From assembly GCA_947625555.1 (NCBI GenBank), contig CANQOT010000002.1, positions 62,001-126,000 on the forward strand: a stretch of DNA of 64,000 bases, given 5' to 3'. This document shows, in pieces, positions 18,924 through 63,030 of this stretch; within the stretch, counting starts at the first letter, position 1, and every line of letters starts with the position of its first letter. The position numbers and the translations under genes were made by a program. The stretch comes from an uncultured Clostridia bacterium. Lineage in GTDB: Bacteria; Bacillota; Clostridia; Christensenellales; Borkfalkiaceae. The notes under the pieces were generated by a model. That model made no database searches. It was given only the letters and a program-made list of their open reading frames with translations, and was not told the origin of the DNA.

Positions 18924-20885
18924 TTAGTCTTTCTTTTCGGGCAGCATTGCGACTTCGACGGGGGTGACGGACACCGCCTCGGTGGGAATTGCTTTAATTA
19001 AATCTGCCTTGCTGCTCCAACCGTTTGCCGATTTGTACGCGTCTACACTCTCCGCGGGCACATAGATGTTAGCAAGTTTCGTTGTCCTGCCCCAACCGAA
19101 CCCTGACGTCGTCGTGGGCGGTGTCGTCGCCTTAATGGTGATGGAGATAAGCTCATTGCAGACATTTGCAATTCTGCCTTCAACGGTTTGTAAGTTTTCT
19201 CCAAACGTCAAATCGGTGAGTTGGGAGCAATTCACAAACAAAAACCCTTTTATTGTTCTGACGCTTTCAAATTCCGCGGTCTTGATTTGCGTCTGGTAGA
19301 ATATCGTAAGGCCCAGTTCCTCTACCTTGGGCATCGAAATCGTTGCAAGCGCAGTCGTACTATAAAACGTATCGGTACCGACCTTGACCAACTTGGGGAA
19401 GCTGACGGACTGAATCTTGCTGTTATAGCTGAACGCACCGCCCTTGATCTCCGTTACATTCTCGAAAGTAACTTCGGTCTCCGTGCTATACGGAAGATAC
19501 AGATAGAGAATGGTGCCGTCGTAGGAGACAAGCGCGTTGTTCTCGATCTTGAAGCTCGTGCTCTTCGGATCGACTTTGAGCGACTTCACTTTGGCAAGGT
19601 TTGCAGACTCGCAAAGACTGTAATCGTACTTGTTGTTCGCAGACAATCCGAAAATGTAGGCAAGTTCGGGGAACGTCGTGAGGTTGGCGGGAATCGTCAT
19701 GTTGACGAAATCGCCCGTGTACTCGTTGAGGGTGCCGTCGTCGTTGATCTTCCAATCGGGGTCGGCTTCCTGTTGGAACCCGCACTTGCAGGTATCGCCT
19801 TGCGAGAAATCATGCGCTTCCACCGTACTTTCGTCCCTTGCGTCGTCCTTCGGGCACTTCATCCAGTGGTTCTCACCGTCGTAGGCCTGTATTGTATATT
19901 TGTGGACGTGGATCCTTTGGACGTTATCCTGCCCCACTTTCCATTCGATGCGGTACAGCCACGCGCCGTCGCTCGGGCAGCCGAGGTTGGCGACGGACGG
20001 GAAGTACTGCCCGTTGAGAACGTTATATACTTTGAACGAATCTCCGGGAGTAAGCTCCACCTCGGCAGACCACGTTTCGACGCCGTCGAACGTCATATGA
20101 ATGCAATTATTTTTGACGTTCGTGTAATTCGGCCACTGGGATTGAGGATATTTAGCAAGAGTGCCGACGATGTACATGTCCTCCGTCGTCGTGGGAGCTG
20201 CTACGGGTTCCACGAGCTCCCAGCTCACGTAGTTGTCCGCCCAAGGTGCGGGTGCGGGTTTCGTGTGTACGGTGAACTTATAGATACCGTCCTTGCCCTT
20301 CGCGACGCCGACGTCCTGGTTGCCCATGTCGACGAACGTCCCGTCGTTGCCTCTGATCTCATTGAGGCCGAAGAACGTGCCGTCCGTCCAAACGAGGGCA
20401 TTATTCTCGTCCCTCTCGTCTTGGCGGATCTTGAACTTGTCGCCGCCCGCGTAGATCTTAAATTGAATGGTATAGAGGGTGAAACCCTCCGCGTCCTTGT
20501 GAGGTTCCTTTTTGAGTTTGAAATTGGGTTTGAGTTCCGTCCAGCTCGAATTTTGCAGGTCGCCTGCGCCGCTTCCCGTCGCCCAGAACTCGCGGGTATC
20601 GAGATCTGCGTCGGGGGTTTCGTCATCGCCGCCTTCGCCGGGTTTTTTCGCGCCGCAAACGCAATCGCCATTGGTGAAGTCGTGGGCCTGCTTGCCCTGC
20701 GCCCAGATGTCGCCGTCGTCGGGGCAGACCATCCAGTGCTGCGTGTCACTGTGTTCCCACTGGGTGTATTCGTGGGTGTGTTCGGGGGTGTCGGGGTCCT
20801 TTTCGCCGCAGGCGGAGATACCGACGCCGAGGCTCGCGGCCATTACGAGCGACAAGCCCGCAATCAGCCAATTCTTTTTGTTCAT
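18924..20885 (-). CDS. BspA-like leucine-rich-repeat lipoprotein with His/Cys modules
   Basis: 653 residues; lipobox ISAC at about residue 26; RBS AGGAGG. Two copies of a His/Cys module (HTHEYTQ..HW..CP.D..AHDF..GDCVCG, ~37-80; HVHKYTI..HWMKCP..AHDF..GDTCKCG, ~325-375) flank two beta domains with a GTL/GTFF character (~95-320) that look carbohydrate-binding-like (inference). Residues ~400-620 are LRR_5/BspA repeats (VTEIKGGAFSYNSKIQSVSF, then VGTDTFY). Surface-anchored by prediction. A perfect 16-bp palindrome lies between promoter and RBS, and an XRE regulator is encoded divergently 117 bp away, so repression by that regulator is plausible. Confidence 0.85.
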   Translation of the reverse strand: MNKKNWLIAGLSLVMAASLGVGISACGEKDPDTPEHTHEYTQWEHSDTQHWMVCPDDGDIWAQGKQAHDFTNGDCVCGAKKPGEGGDDETPDADLDTREFWATGSGAGDLQNSSWTELKPNFKLKKEPHKDAEGFTLYTIQFKIYAGGDKFKIRQDERDENNALVWTDGTFFGLNEIRGNDGTFVDMGNQDVGVAKGKDGIYKFTVHTKPAPAPWADNYVSWELVEPVAAPTTTEDMYIVGTLAKYPQSQWPNYTNVKNNCIHMTFDGVETWSAEVELTPGDSFKVYNVLNGQYFPSVANLGCPSDGAWLYRIEWKVGQDNVQRIHVHKYTIQAYDGENHWMKCPKDDARDESTVEAHDFSQGDTCKCGFQQEADPDWKINDDGTLNEYTGDFVNMTIPANLTTFPELAYIFGLSANNKYDYSLCESANLAKVKSLKVDPKSTSFKIENNALVSYDGTILYLYLPYSTETEVTFENVTEIKGGAFSYNSKIQSVSFPKLVKVGTDTFYSTTALATISMPKVEELGLTIFYQTQIKTAEFESVRTIKGFLFVNCSQLTDLTFGENLQTVEGRIANVCNELISITIKATTPPTTTSGFGWGRTTKLANIYVPAESVDAYKSANGWSSKADLIKAIPTEAVSVTPVEVAMLPEKKD

Positions 20886-21422: not shown

Positions 21423-21451
21423 TTGAATTTTTTGCGAAAATCATGTATAAT
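21423..21451 (+). promoter_or_regulatory. Promoter of the structured leader and the 21631 lipoprotein gene
   Basis: TTGAAT, 17 bp, TATAAT. The predicted start near 21457 is at the 5' strand of the P1 helix described next. Confidence 0.8.
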
Positions 21452-21456
21452 GAAAG

Positions 21457-21613
21457 CACCACACAGACAACATATTACTCGTTTGATTCGCGATCGCGGC
21501 ATCGTGCGTCTCTTTTCGTATGCTCGAACGAGTAAAGGTGTTTGTGTGGTGACAAATCCGTCGGGGAGGCGCCTTTGCGGTGTGTCCCCCCGGACACACC
21601 TTATTTTTTTATT
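21457..21613 (+). ncRNA. Structured leader RNA / candidate attenuator with terminator
   Basis: P1 pairs 457-469 with 539-551 (offsets from 21000): CACCACACAGACA with TGTTTGTGTGGTG, 13 bp including one G-U. P2 pairs 477-485 with 525-533 (ACTCGTTTG with CGAACGAGT, 9 bp). A GC-rich inner element lies between. After a 27-nt linker comes a perfect 9-bp terminator GGTGTGTCC-CCCC-GGACACACC followed by TTATTTTTTT, 17 bp before the ATG of the lipoprotein gene. Part of the P1 3' strand (GTGTG) can alternatively pair with CACAC of the terminator, so a switch is conceivable. I match it to no riboswitch class I know. A free-standing small RNA ending at the terminator is the alternative. Confidence 0.65.
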
Positions 21614-21630
21614 CAAAGGAGGTAACCATC

Positions 21631-23607
21631 ATGCACAAGAGAGTATTCACCACTGCTCTCGCACTCCTCTCCGCCATCTGCCTGCTCGCGGGCTGCGGAG
21701 GCAAGACGAACCCGGGGACGACACCCGGCGGCGAAACGCCCGGCCAAACCACGCCCGGCGGGACGACCCCGGGAGGCACCACGCCCGGCGGAACGACACC
21801 CGGCGGGACCACACCCGGCGGCACGACCCCGGGCGGCGAAGAACCCGGCCTGCACGTTCACGACGGAACGACCTATCTTTCGCACGGCGGCACATGCTCG
21901 TGCGGCGAAACGTTCCCCGCAGGCGACCATGTATGGGACACGAGCAACAAATGCACGGTCTGCGGCTACGAACTTCCCGTGACGGACGGGCTCGTGTACA
22001 CCGACGTCGAAGGCGGGCTCAAAGCCGGCTTCGATTGGGAGAACGAGGCCCTTCTCTCCGAAAAGACGATCGTCATTCCCGCCTATCACGACGGCAAAAA
22101 GGTCGTCGCGATTCCGGGCTTCTACGACGGCGAGGAGATGGATCCCGTTACGTTCTGCGGCGGAGAATTTGAGGCCGTCGCCGTGCCCAACACGGTGCAG
22201 ACCGTCCCCACCTATGCGTTCTACTCCTGCCCGTCCCTGCGCGAAGTGTACATCGGCGGGGGCACGCTCGGAGACAACGTTTTCATGTCTTGCCCGTCTC
22301 TGCGTGAAGCCTACATCGGCGGGGGCACGCTCGGAAGCAGCGTATTCGAGGGCTGTGCCTCTCTGAAAAAAGCCGTGCTCCCCGCAAATACGACGGTCAT
22401 TCCCGAATACACGTTCTACGGCTGCCTGAAACTGTATGACTTTGAAATTCCTGCGGGCGTGACGGAAATCGGTCAGAGGGCGTTCATGTCGAGCGGCCTC
22501 GTCCGCTTCACCCTCCCCGCAACGCTCCAAACGATCGGCAGCGACTGCTTCAAAAACTGCTATCACATCGTGGACGTCTGCAACCAAAGTTCCCTCTCGC
22601 AGGAAGAACTCGGACTGACCGACGTGGACGATTTCCACACCGAAGCGGCGTCCTCGGGCACGATCACGGAAAAGGACGATTTCCTCTTTTGGACGTTTGA
22701 CGGCGCGGACGAGCTGCTCGGCTACTTCGGCACCGAGACGTCCGTCGTATTCCCCGCCGACTGCAACGGCAAGCAGTACATCGTCCGCCCGTCCGCTTTC
22801 ACGAGCTCCGACCTCGTCTCCGTGGAGACGGGCGACGGCGTGAAGGCCATCGGCAATTCCGCCTTCGAAAAGTGCAGCCATCTCCTCCGCATCGAGATCG
22901 GGAAGAATGTCGAGACGATCGACCTCTACGCCTTCTCCCGATGCACCAAACTGTTGGAAGTGGGCGATCTTTCCGATAAGATCGAGATCGTACAGGGCGC
23001 AACGGACAACGGCGGCATCGCGCAATACGCCATTCACGTCTACACCGACAAGAACGACCGCGGGCTCATCACGAAGAGCGGCGAATATGCCTTCTTCTCC
23101 TATGGCGAAAATCACCTTCTCGTCGATTACTACGGCGCGGAGACCGACCTCACCCTGCCTGCGTCCTGTAACGGCAGCAAGTACGCCATCGTGCAAGAGC
23201 TCTTCCAAGGATCCCGCCTGACGAGCGTGGACTTCGGGAACGGCGTCAAGGAGATCGGCAAAAAGGCGTTCTATAACTGCAAATATCTTACTTCCGTCAC
23301 GTTCGGCGACTCCCTCGAAAAGATCGGCGAGAGCGCATTCGGGAGCGCGAAGGCACTCAAAACCGTCTCCTTCCCCGCGAGCCTCAAATACATCGGAAAG
23401 GACGCTTTTTGGTGCGGCGGAAACGCGGGCGAGGGCATCACGAGCGCCACGTTCGCCGTGAAAGAGGGCTGGACGTGGTGGATGAGCGACAGTACGCAGG
23501 TCGCCGCGCCTCAGCTTGATTCCCTCGACGATCCCGCCGTCAATGCCAACTATCTCGCCAGCCGCGGCGATTACGCAAACGCGCACAAGATCATGAAACA
23601 CGAATAA
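21631..23607 (+). CDS. BspA-like leucine-rich-repeat lipoprotein with TPGG linker
   Basis: 658 residues from the ATG at 21631 with AAAGGAGG 8 bp upstream; a longer in-frame start would lie in the terminator and is rejected. Signal peptide with lipobox LLAGC (~20). A low-complexity linker follows (~25-70) of about eight TTPGG units, encoded by imperfect 15-bp repeats, then a His/Cys module (HVHDGTTY..CSCG..HVWD..CTVCG, ~72-115). Three or four blocks of LRR_5 repeats follow (AFYSCPSLREVYIGGGTL, then IGKKAFYNCKYLTSVTFGD), separated by Tyr-rich spacers. Predicted surface protein; ligand unknown. Expression passes through the leader terminator directly upstream. Confidence 0.88.
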   Translation: MHKRVFTTALALLSAICLLAGCGGKTNPGTTPGGETPGQTTPGGTTPGGTTPGGTTPGGTTPGGTTPGGEEPGLHVHDGTTYLSHGGTCSCGETFPAGDHVWDTSNKCTVCGYELPVTDGLVYTDVEGGLKAGFDWENEALLSEKTIVIPAYHDGKKVVAIPGFYDGEEMDPVTFCGGEFEAVAVPNTVQTVPTYAFYSCPSLREVYIGGGTLGDNVFMSCPSLREAYIGGGTLGSSVFEGCASLKKAVLPANTTVIPEYTFYGCLKLYDFEIPAGVTEIGQRAFMSSGLVRFTLPATLQTIGSDCFKNCYHIVDVCNQSSLSQEELGLTDVDDFHTEAASSGTITEKDDFLFWTFDGADELLGYFGTETSVVFPADCNGKQYIVRPSAFTSSDLVSVETGDGVKAIGNSAFEKCSHLLRIEIGKNVETIDLYAFSRCTKLLEVGDLSDKIEIVQGATDNGGIAQYAIHVYTDKNDRGLITKSGEYAFFSYGENHLLVDYYGAETDLTLPASCNGSKYAIVQELFQGSRLTSVDFGNGVKEIGKKAFYNCKYLTSVTFGDSLEKIGESAFGSAKALKTVSFPASLKYIGKDAFWCGGNAGEGITSATFAVKEGWTWWMSDSTQVAAPQLDSLDDPAVNANYLASRGDYANAHKIMKHE

Positions 23608-62702: not shown

Positions 62703-63030
62703 CGGATAGAATCTTCGAGAGTCTTTCCAAGCGAGTACTTCGGACCACTCCTGCGGGAGTCGAGGCCATACGGACAGCCGGGTCCACTGCCGATCGGCGG
62801 ATCTTTCGCCTTATTGATCGAGTTAAAAGCTCGAATTTTATAAGTTGGTTACTTTATAACCGCAATGTGCAAGCGTTTGCACAGACTTGTGAAACGGTCA
62901 ATAAGAGTAGTAAAAGTATTTTTGCTTTCGACTCCGAACCCCCTATCCCGCGAAGCGGGGCGGTCTCTCCGTCTCAATGCCATGCAAAGGGAACAAGCTG
63001 TGCGATATGCAACGCACGGCTTGTTTTTTC
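62703..63030 (+). ncRNA. Long structured leader with terminator upstream of the decarboxylase gene
   Basis: About 330 nt without a credible gene. Visible hairpins: GGACC..GGTCC enclosing ACTCC-TGCG-GGAGT (~62749-62803), TCGAG..CTCGA, GGTTA-CTTTA-TAACC, TGTGCAA-GCGT-TTGCACA and CCCGC-GAA-GCGGG. A 13-bp terminator AACAAGCTGTGCG/CGCACGGCTTGTT plus T5 (62992-63029) ends 3 bp before the RBS GGAGGG. No T-box, lysine or other riboswitch consensus that I know is recognisable. Transcription must pass the terminator to express the gene, so a regulatory RNA is likely; an independent ncRNA is possible. Confidence 0.6.
62866..62883. promoter_or_regulatory. LacI/CcpA-like 18-bp operator dyad
   Basis: TGTGCAAGCGTTTGCACA is symmetrical around a central CG with one mismatch pair, the pattern of LacI-family operators (similar to cre). 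In the transcript it also forms a hairpin. Confidence 0.45.

Follow-up and report, generated by a model that had tools for sequence, protein, structure and literature searches.

A structured leader RNA upstream of surface-protein genes in Clostridia: a candidate transcription attenuator and probable orphan riboswitch

Layout of the leader and its helices

The window, a stretch of 64,000 nucleotides from an uncultured Clostridia bacterium, carries on its forward strand a gene for a BspA-type LRR lipoprotein of 658 amino acids (positions 21631 to 23607; PF13306, E 3e-60), which is presumably regulated by the leader RNA that precedes it (21457-21610). A sigma-70-type promoter (TTGAAT, 17 nucleotides, TATAAT; 21423-21451, with the -35 box at 21423-21428 and the -10 box at 21446-21451) is followed by helix P1, in which 21457-21469, the inferred 5' end of the transcript, pairs with 21539-21551 over 13 bp including one G-U. 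An internal loop with a conserved AUA (21470-21474) separates P1 from P2, a 12-bp helix formed by 21475-21486 and 21524-21535. P2 encloses a hairpin, P3 (21489-21506), made of CGCGAU (21489-21494) and AUCGUG (21501-21506) and carrying a conserved GGCAU motif at 21498-21502. Behind P1 come a 27-nucleotide linker (21552-21578) and an intrinsic terminator with its U-tract (21579-21610): nine perfect base pairs (21579-21587 with 21592-21600), UUGCGG at the foot (21575-21580; consensus UGCRG in order-level copies) and the tract UUAUUUUUUU after the stem (21601-21610), which includes U7 at 21604-21610. The Shine-Dalgarno sequence AAGGAGG (21616-21622) and the ATG at 21631 follow.

A preliminary description of this locus had read from it a near-consensus promoter, a P1 of 13 bp, a 27-nucleotide linker, a perfect terminator with U7, and the ribosome-binding site and ATG of an LRR lipoprotein gene, and each of these was found at the positions given above. 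Its two-helix element needed amendment: P1 and P2 are both present, P2 has 12 bp instead of the nine proposed, and the further hairpin P3 lies inside it. P3, the pseudoknot and the linker antiterminator were absent from that description, which had also proposed covariation among homologues as a check on its helices.

Such covariation is extensive. In an alignment (A5) of 84 distinct copies, two-sided changes occur at every one of the 26 nested pairs, and 94.8% of cells are paired, against 65.2% after shuffling and at most 43.8% after sliding; the fit of this alignment to the model structure favours the result. Two-sided changes affect 12 of the 12 modelled P1 pairs (98.3% of cells paired), and the P2 pairs (model helices 2 and 3) covary as well; P3 corresponds to model helix 4. 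The AUA of the internal loop occurs in all ten rows of alignment A1 and falls within positions 11-20 in 187 of 210 copies, while the apical motif reads GGYA in 188 of 210. The AUA loop is possibly a hinge or a ligand site. In the window, the leader folds at -68.8 kcal/mol versus -44.5 (sd 4.0) for shuffled sequences (z -6.0), none of 200 shuffles being as good; the P3 region is paired otherwise in its unconstrained minimum-energy fold.

Where does the transcript begin? In 180 of 195 copies, 6 or 7 nucleotides separate the end of the best -10 box from the point where the model places the start of P1, and in 183 the best -35 box lies another 17-18 nucleotides upstream. The -10 box retains five or six of the six consensus bases in 187 of the 195 (31 of 195 shuffled), and the -35 box is weaker, with three or four of six in 145. 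As the -10 box sits 6-7 nucleotides before it, P1 would lie at the very 5' end of the transcript, and its first base, here about 21457-21458, is most likely the +1, in agreement with the start near 21457 that the preliminary description expected.

Three other observations concern the window itself. Soon after the lipoprotein signal sequence, the downstream gene encodes a proline-glycine-threonine repeat (PGGTTPGG...; 21740-21850) whose length varies among relatives. A second BspA-type LRR lipoprotein gene (PF13306) lies nearby on the reverse strand (18924-20885), without a copy of the leader. At 62742-62793, on the forward strand, is the sole gathering-level Rfam match of the window, to the streptococcal sRNA family RF02440 (SpF59_sRNA; 67.6 bits).

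Copies, host range and downstream genes

By DNA similarity, relatives of the leader were identified in 10 of 103 genomes of the genus, some of them before a different gene. This search reaches few genomes because the RNA keeps its structure as its letters change, and covariance models were therefore needed. A model built from nine of these genomes (R1) found matches in 67 of the 103 at E up to 0.1. A second model (R2), built from 84 copies, detects a single copy in the window (78.3 bits, E 4.1e-14), which is one of 12 in its own 1.6-Mb genome. With R2, the RNA was found in 83 of 103 genomes of the genus, 194 of 398 of the family (9 of 18 genera), 62 of 396 sampled in the order (24 of 142 genera) and 41 of 391 sampled in the class (26 of 222 genera). 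Genomes from outside the order account for 37 of the 41 class-level positives and, by row count, represent 11 further families. Two overlapping phylum-wide samples returned the own genome only (1 of 299 with R2; 1 of 189 with R3, a model built from the class-level copies of alignment A9).

These counts refer to sampled genomes and Infernal's stricter filters; nine candidates were scored per genome in the family, order and class scans, so that the copy numbers obtained there are lower bounds. We dropped four antisense matches (L013, L017, L115 and L119, minus strand) and a spurious match in L257 before counting; two doubtful rows (L262 minus, and L257 at 485) were kept in alignment A9, and redundancy was filtered at a sequence ratio of 0.85-0.86. 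An exact pattern matched 32 GTDB stretches, whose titles designate Clostridia, Eubacteriales or Firmicutes MAGs, such as Candidatus Coproplasma and Gallimonas; a first hand-made pattern had been too strict, with zero matches in six genomes, the own genome among them.

We also considered a mobile or viral element and rejected it, because two exact patterns had zero matches in viral contigs and the copies precede different genes. DNA similarity searches of plasmids and phages gave zero matches to the leader, and the class-level copy L224 gave one short partial match to plasmids, over 13% of the query.

A U-tract follows within 60 nucleotides in 186 of 203 copies. A Shine-Dalgarno sequence and an open reading frame lie within 200 nucleotides downstream on the same strand in 164 of the 203, versus 37 on the control side. 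This position before genes, together with an antiterminator kept by covariation (see below), speaks against a stand-alone small RNA gene acting in trans, with the downstream gene read by leakage. Each unit does have its own promoter and terminator, as such a gene would, and at eight loci (L033, L034, L153, L156, L158, L159, L249 and L254) tandem units stand before one gene, their starts 177-226 nucleotides apart, with a promoter-like sequence before each unit at the six that were read out (L153, L156, L158, L159, L249 and L254). On balance we regard a trans-acting RNA as very unlikely, and treat the element as a leader acting in cis.

Which genes does it precede? Among 110 of the 149 distinct downstream proteins, searched against Pfam, 41 are BspA-type LRR proteins and 15 carry a zinc ribbon. 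A regular expression applied to 167 distinct downstream proteins from all levels recognised a lipobox-like N-terminus in 87 and an N-terminal zinc ribbon in 20; the lipobox expression is a loose one, with a rough baseline of 8 of 45 open reading frames in the window. Of 26 class-level proteins, 18 were searched against Pfam, and six appear to be secreted or bound to the surface (two LRR, two copper-amine-oxidase-N, one RCC1 and one GDSL). The others comprise two EcsC-like proteins (one below the Pfam cut-off), a DUF4230 protein, a zinc ribbon, an aconitase, a metallo-beta-lactamase fold and six proteins without a family. The surface theme is therefore strong in the order and weaker beyond it. 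Taken together, the gene contexts suggest that the regulated genes mostly encode surface proteins, largely BspA-type LRR lipoproteins.

Two gene contexts may be recorded separately. A protein of 58-64 residues, similar by eye from locus to locus, recurs behind the leader in L029, L034, L071, L116, L142 and L145. In one class-level genome, two copies lie about 7 kb apart (L231 and L253), and an aconitase frame (PF00330), an unusual non-surface partner, begins about 200 nucleotides behind the L231 copy.

Pseudoknot, antiterminator and the proposed switch

The strand that leaves P3, GCGUCUC (21506-21512), is complementary to GAGGCGC (21566-21572), inside the linker, over 7 bp with one G-U. Other copies preserve the match with different letters, as in GUAUCUC/GAGAUAC, GUACCUC/GAGGUAC, GUGUUUC/GAAACAC and CUUCUCU/GGAGAAG. 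A pseudoknot register can be assigned in 114 of 117 copies, a figure inflated by the choice of the best register for each copy, and the actual evidence comes from strand-swap tests. In 103 non-redundant copies, native complementarity exceeded that of all 3000 strand exchanges, in a test where the P3-loop anchor misplaces some rows and whose null, like that of the other swap tests, ignores relatedness between copies. In two further sets, of 107 copies up to the order level and 23 class-level copies, none of 2000 exchanges per set reached the native value.

The linker has a second potential partner. In the minimum-energy fold, 21557-21573 pairs with the 5' arm and loop of the terminator (21579-21594), forming a putative antiterminator. 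No exchange reached the native value here either (0 of 3000 for the 103 copies; 0 of 2000 for each of the 107-copy and 23-copy sets), and in 83 copies the mean linker/terminator duplex energy was -22.4 kcal/mol with the own terminator, compared with -16.1 when terminators were taken from other copies and -11.1 when they were shuffled. The covariation extends to the terminator loop, a pairing that the terminator alone does not need. Two control pairings, the middle strand with the terminator and the 5' strand of P3 with the linker, stayed at chance in the 103 copies (2779 and 2501 of 3000 swaps equalled or exceeded the native value). The former control was again at chance in the 107 copies (1600 of 2000) and near significance in the 23 class-level ones (93 of 2000).

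Two exclusive folds had already been proposed in the preliminary description, with the 3' strand of P1 pairing with the terminator arm. The exclusivity stands, and the P1 pairing does exist; it is secondary, appearing in the duplexes of some copies as an extension of the antiterminator and not as its core, and the terminator has its conserved competitor in the linker segment 21557-21573. The general reading given there, of a structured leader with an attenuator-like terminator and exclusive folds, is supported.

In many copies the lower pairs of P3 share bases with the pseudoknot strand, and the hairpin may therefore be incompatible with a complete pseudoknot. A distinct class-level sub-type (L222-L237 and L249-L263) often shows a GGUAAAA loop together with ACACUUUUU or AUGCAUUUUU in its linker, which matches the P3 loop and 3' side. 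In the 23 non-redundant class-level copies the longest matches measure 8-15 bp, a few of these matches falling at other places; in this sub-type, P3 and the pseudoknot look fully exclusive. Pairing of the GGCAU loop with AUGC, which would make a second pseudoknot, is suggestive only and we do not claim it: the letters of both are nearly invariant, and several copies read CGC or AGC.

These variants also bear on leader-peptide attenuation, in which a translated short frame starting near the UGC box would decide termination. A Shine-Dalgarno-like sequence and a start codon, with a frame of 5-30 codons that begins inside the modelled part, occur in 69 of 210 copies, and since they hold these signals a translated leader is conceivable for those 69. 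The remaining 141 have no such frame; it is not conserved throughout the copies. The start codon is lost in the several copies where CGC or AGC replaces UGC, and the frame enters or crosses the terminator. As an account of the element as a whole we find it hardly credible, and retain an attenuator that works through RNA folding.

How might this attenuator operate? RNA polymerase would begin with the first base of P1, and the helices P1 to P3 would fold while emerging. In the ON state, the linker would take the 5' arm and loop of the terminator once these are made, forming the antiterminator, and the gene would be transcribed. In the OFF state, the linker would instead pair back with the strand after P3, in the pseudoknot, leaving the terminator free, and transcription would stop before the gene. 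A signal stabilising the pseudoknotted fold would turn the gene off; we infer both the alternation of the two folds in the cell and this OFF direction.

Fold energies are compatible with such a competition. For the window, the minimum-energy fold computed without a pseudoknot contains the antiterminator (-67.9 kcal/mol); forcing the terminator instead gives -66.6, a cost of 1.3 kcal/mol. Among 119 non-redundant copies, 38 adopt the antiterminator in their unconstrained minimum and 80 adopt the terminator; 11 more copies, without a U-tract by the rule of the script, were left out. When the linker was blocked to mimic the pseudoknot, a constraint that excludes the antiterminator by construction, the terminator formed in 118 of the 119. 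Because free energy favours the antiterminator in only 38 copies, the ON/OFF balance would rest on co-transcriptional folding. As expected of a switch, both states compete, with the order in which the strands are made giving the antiterminator the first chance to form.

Comparative sequence evidence supports the promoter position, helices P1-P3, the complementarities of the pseudoknot and antiterminator, the terminator and the position before genes. An upstream fold, a terminator and an exclusive antiterminator all appear to be present, as in attenuators of the riboswitch kind. We consider it probable, from sequence comparison, that the leader attenuates transcription in cis, most likely as an orphan riboswitch. 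An RNA-binding protein, instead of a small molecule, could also select between the pseudoknot/terminator and antiterminator folds. The presence of one RNA before many unrelated genes, with 12 copies in a genome, is what a dedicated regulator protein would allow; the large conserved part, the pseudoknot and the conserved internal and apical loops look, in our judgement, more like a ligand-binding fold. Control by a protein is, to our mind, rather unlikely, and we prefer the riboswitch.

An RNA family outside Rfam with such breadth and copy number (12 in 1.6 Mb) is unusual, and it would tie one signal to surface lipoproteins and to adhesin-like proteins in gut bacteria that are mostly uncultured. 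As both folds are defined base by base, the mechanism and the search for a ligand are directly testable in vitro.

Candidate signals and comparison with known systems

A small molecule may be the signal, binding around the conserved AUA of the internal loop and around the GGCAU loop. Among the downstream proteins scanned, no gene context names a metabolite and no metabolic pathway is prominent. We considered c-di-GMP. A GGDEF domain (PF00990, E up to 1e-10) was detected in 20 of 103 genomes of the genus; none was found in the own genome, which is 99% complete and bears 12 copies of the RNA, and by row comparison 66 of the 83 RNA-bearing genomes of the genus are without one. c-di-GMP made by the cell is therefore an unlikely ligand, and we rejected it. 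A bolder proposal is that of a new and widespread Clostridia riboswitch class which would sense another signalling compound and, in up to a dozen copies per genome, would help to set the make-up of the cell surface through strand exchange, the middle strand behind P3 pairing either with P3 or with the linker while the linker alternates between that strand and the terminator; the arguments for and against it seem to us evenly balanced.

The preliminary description recognised no riboswitch class in this leader, and a search of Rfam 15 agrees: no family reached its gathering threshold over the element, whether in the window or in permissive searches of the leader and of 30 related loci. The best permissive match of the leader was to tfoR, on the terminator part (20.2 bits versus a threshold of 70; E 0.0086), and the strongest in the 30 loci was to MIR1428, in L262 (39.1 bits versus 79; E 4e-4). 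Known riboswitches and other Rfam families were accordingly set aside as candidates, as was the T-box leader, which had no Rfam match on the window or the leader.

Several known systems resemble the element in part. The c-di-GMP-I and -II riboswitches govern surface and adhesion genes in Clostridia, often via transcription terminators, and class II contains a pseudoknot. The present RNA shares the surface genes, the terminator and, with class II, the pseudoknot; it differs in that the c-di-GMP riboswitch models gave no Rfam match over the leader or its relatives, and in the lack of GGDEF in its own genome. In riboswitches of the SAM-I type, exclusive antiterminator and terminator structures are governed by an upstream fold that includes a pseudoknot. 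This and other transcription-terminating riboswitches have the control layout that we propose for our element, whereas sequence, topology and genes differ.

At the level of abstracts, we found no paper describing this leader RNA, and a term search of the main texts of PMC8632094, PMC8040213 and PMC7266159 gave no match to the element. The thousands of microbiome RNA candidates described in PMC8040213 may include it, unnamed. The raiA motif RNA, or ModT, is likewise a widespread structured RNA of Bacillota, as described in PMC11706538; our copies have no Rfam raiA match.

By gene context, the closest published item is the SLH motif of Stav et al. (2019; PMC6429828). It is reported there as a riboswitch candidate with 80 examples in Synergistaceae, Clostridia and Negativicutes, about 60% of copies standing before SLH-domain genes, for which the authors suggested as signal a molecule of cell-wall homeostasis such as c-di-GMP. 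Could our element be this motif, or a branch of it? Both precede surface-protein genes in Clostridia. The SLH domain is absent among the 25 families listed, of 49 Pfam families, for 110 downstream proteins, and among the 18 class-level proteins scanned, many proteins in either set being cut by locus ends. Neither sample of its own phylum contained a match outside the class. Identity with the SLH motif seems improbable to us on these grounds. Compared by description, the range and gene partners of the two look different; by that comparison our element would stand apart from the SLH motif, probably as a new family within the attenuating leader RNAs, whose members are probably riboswitches.
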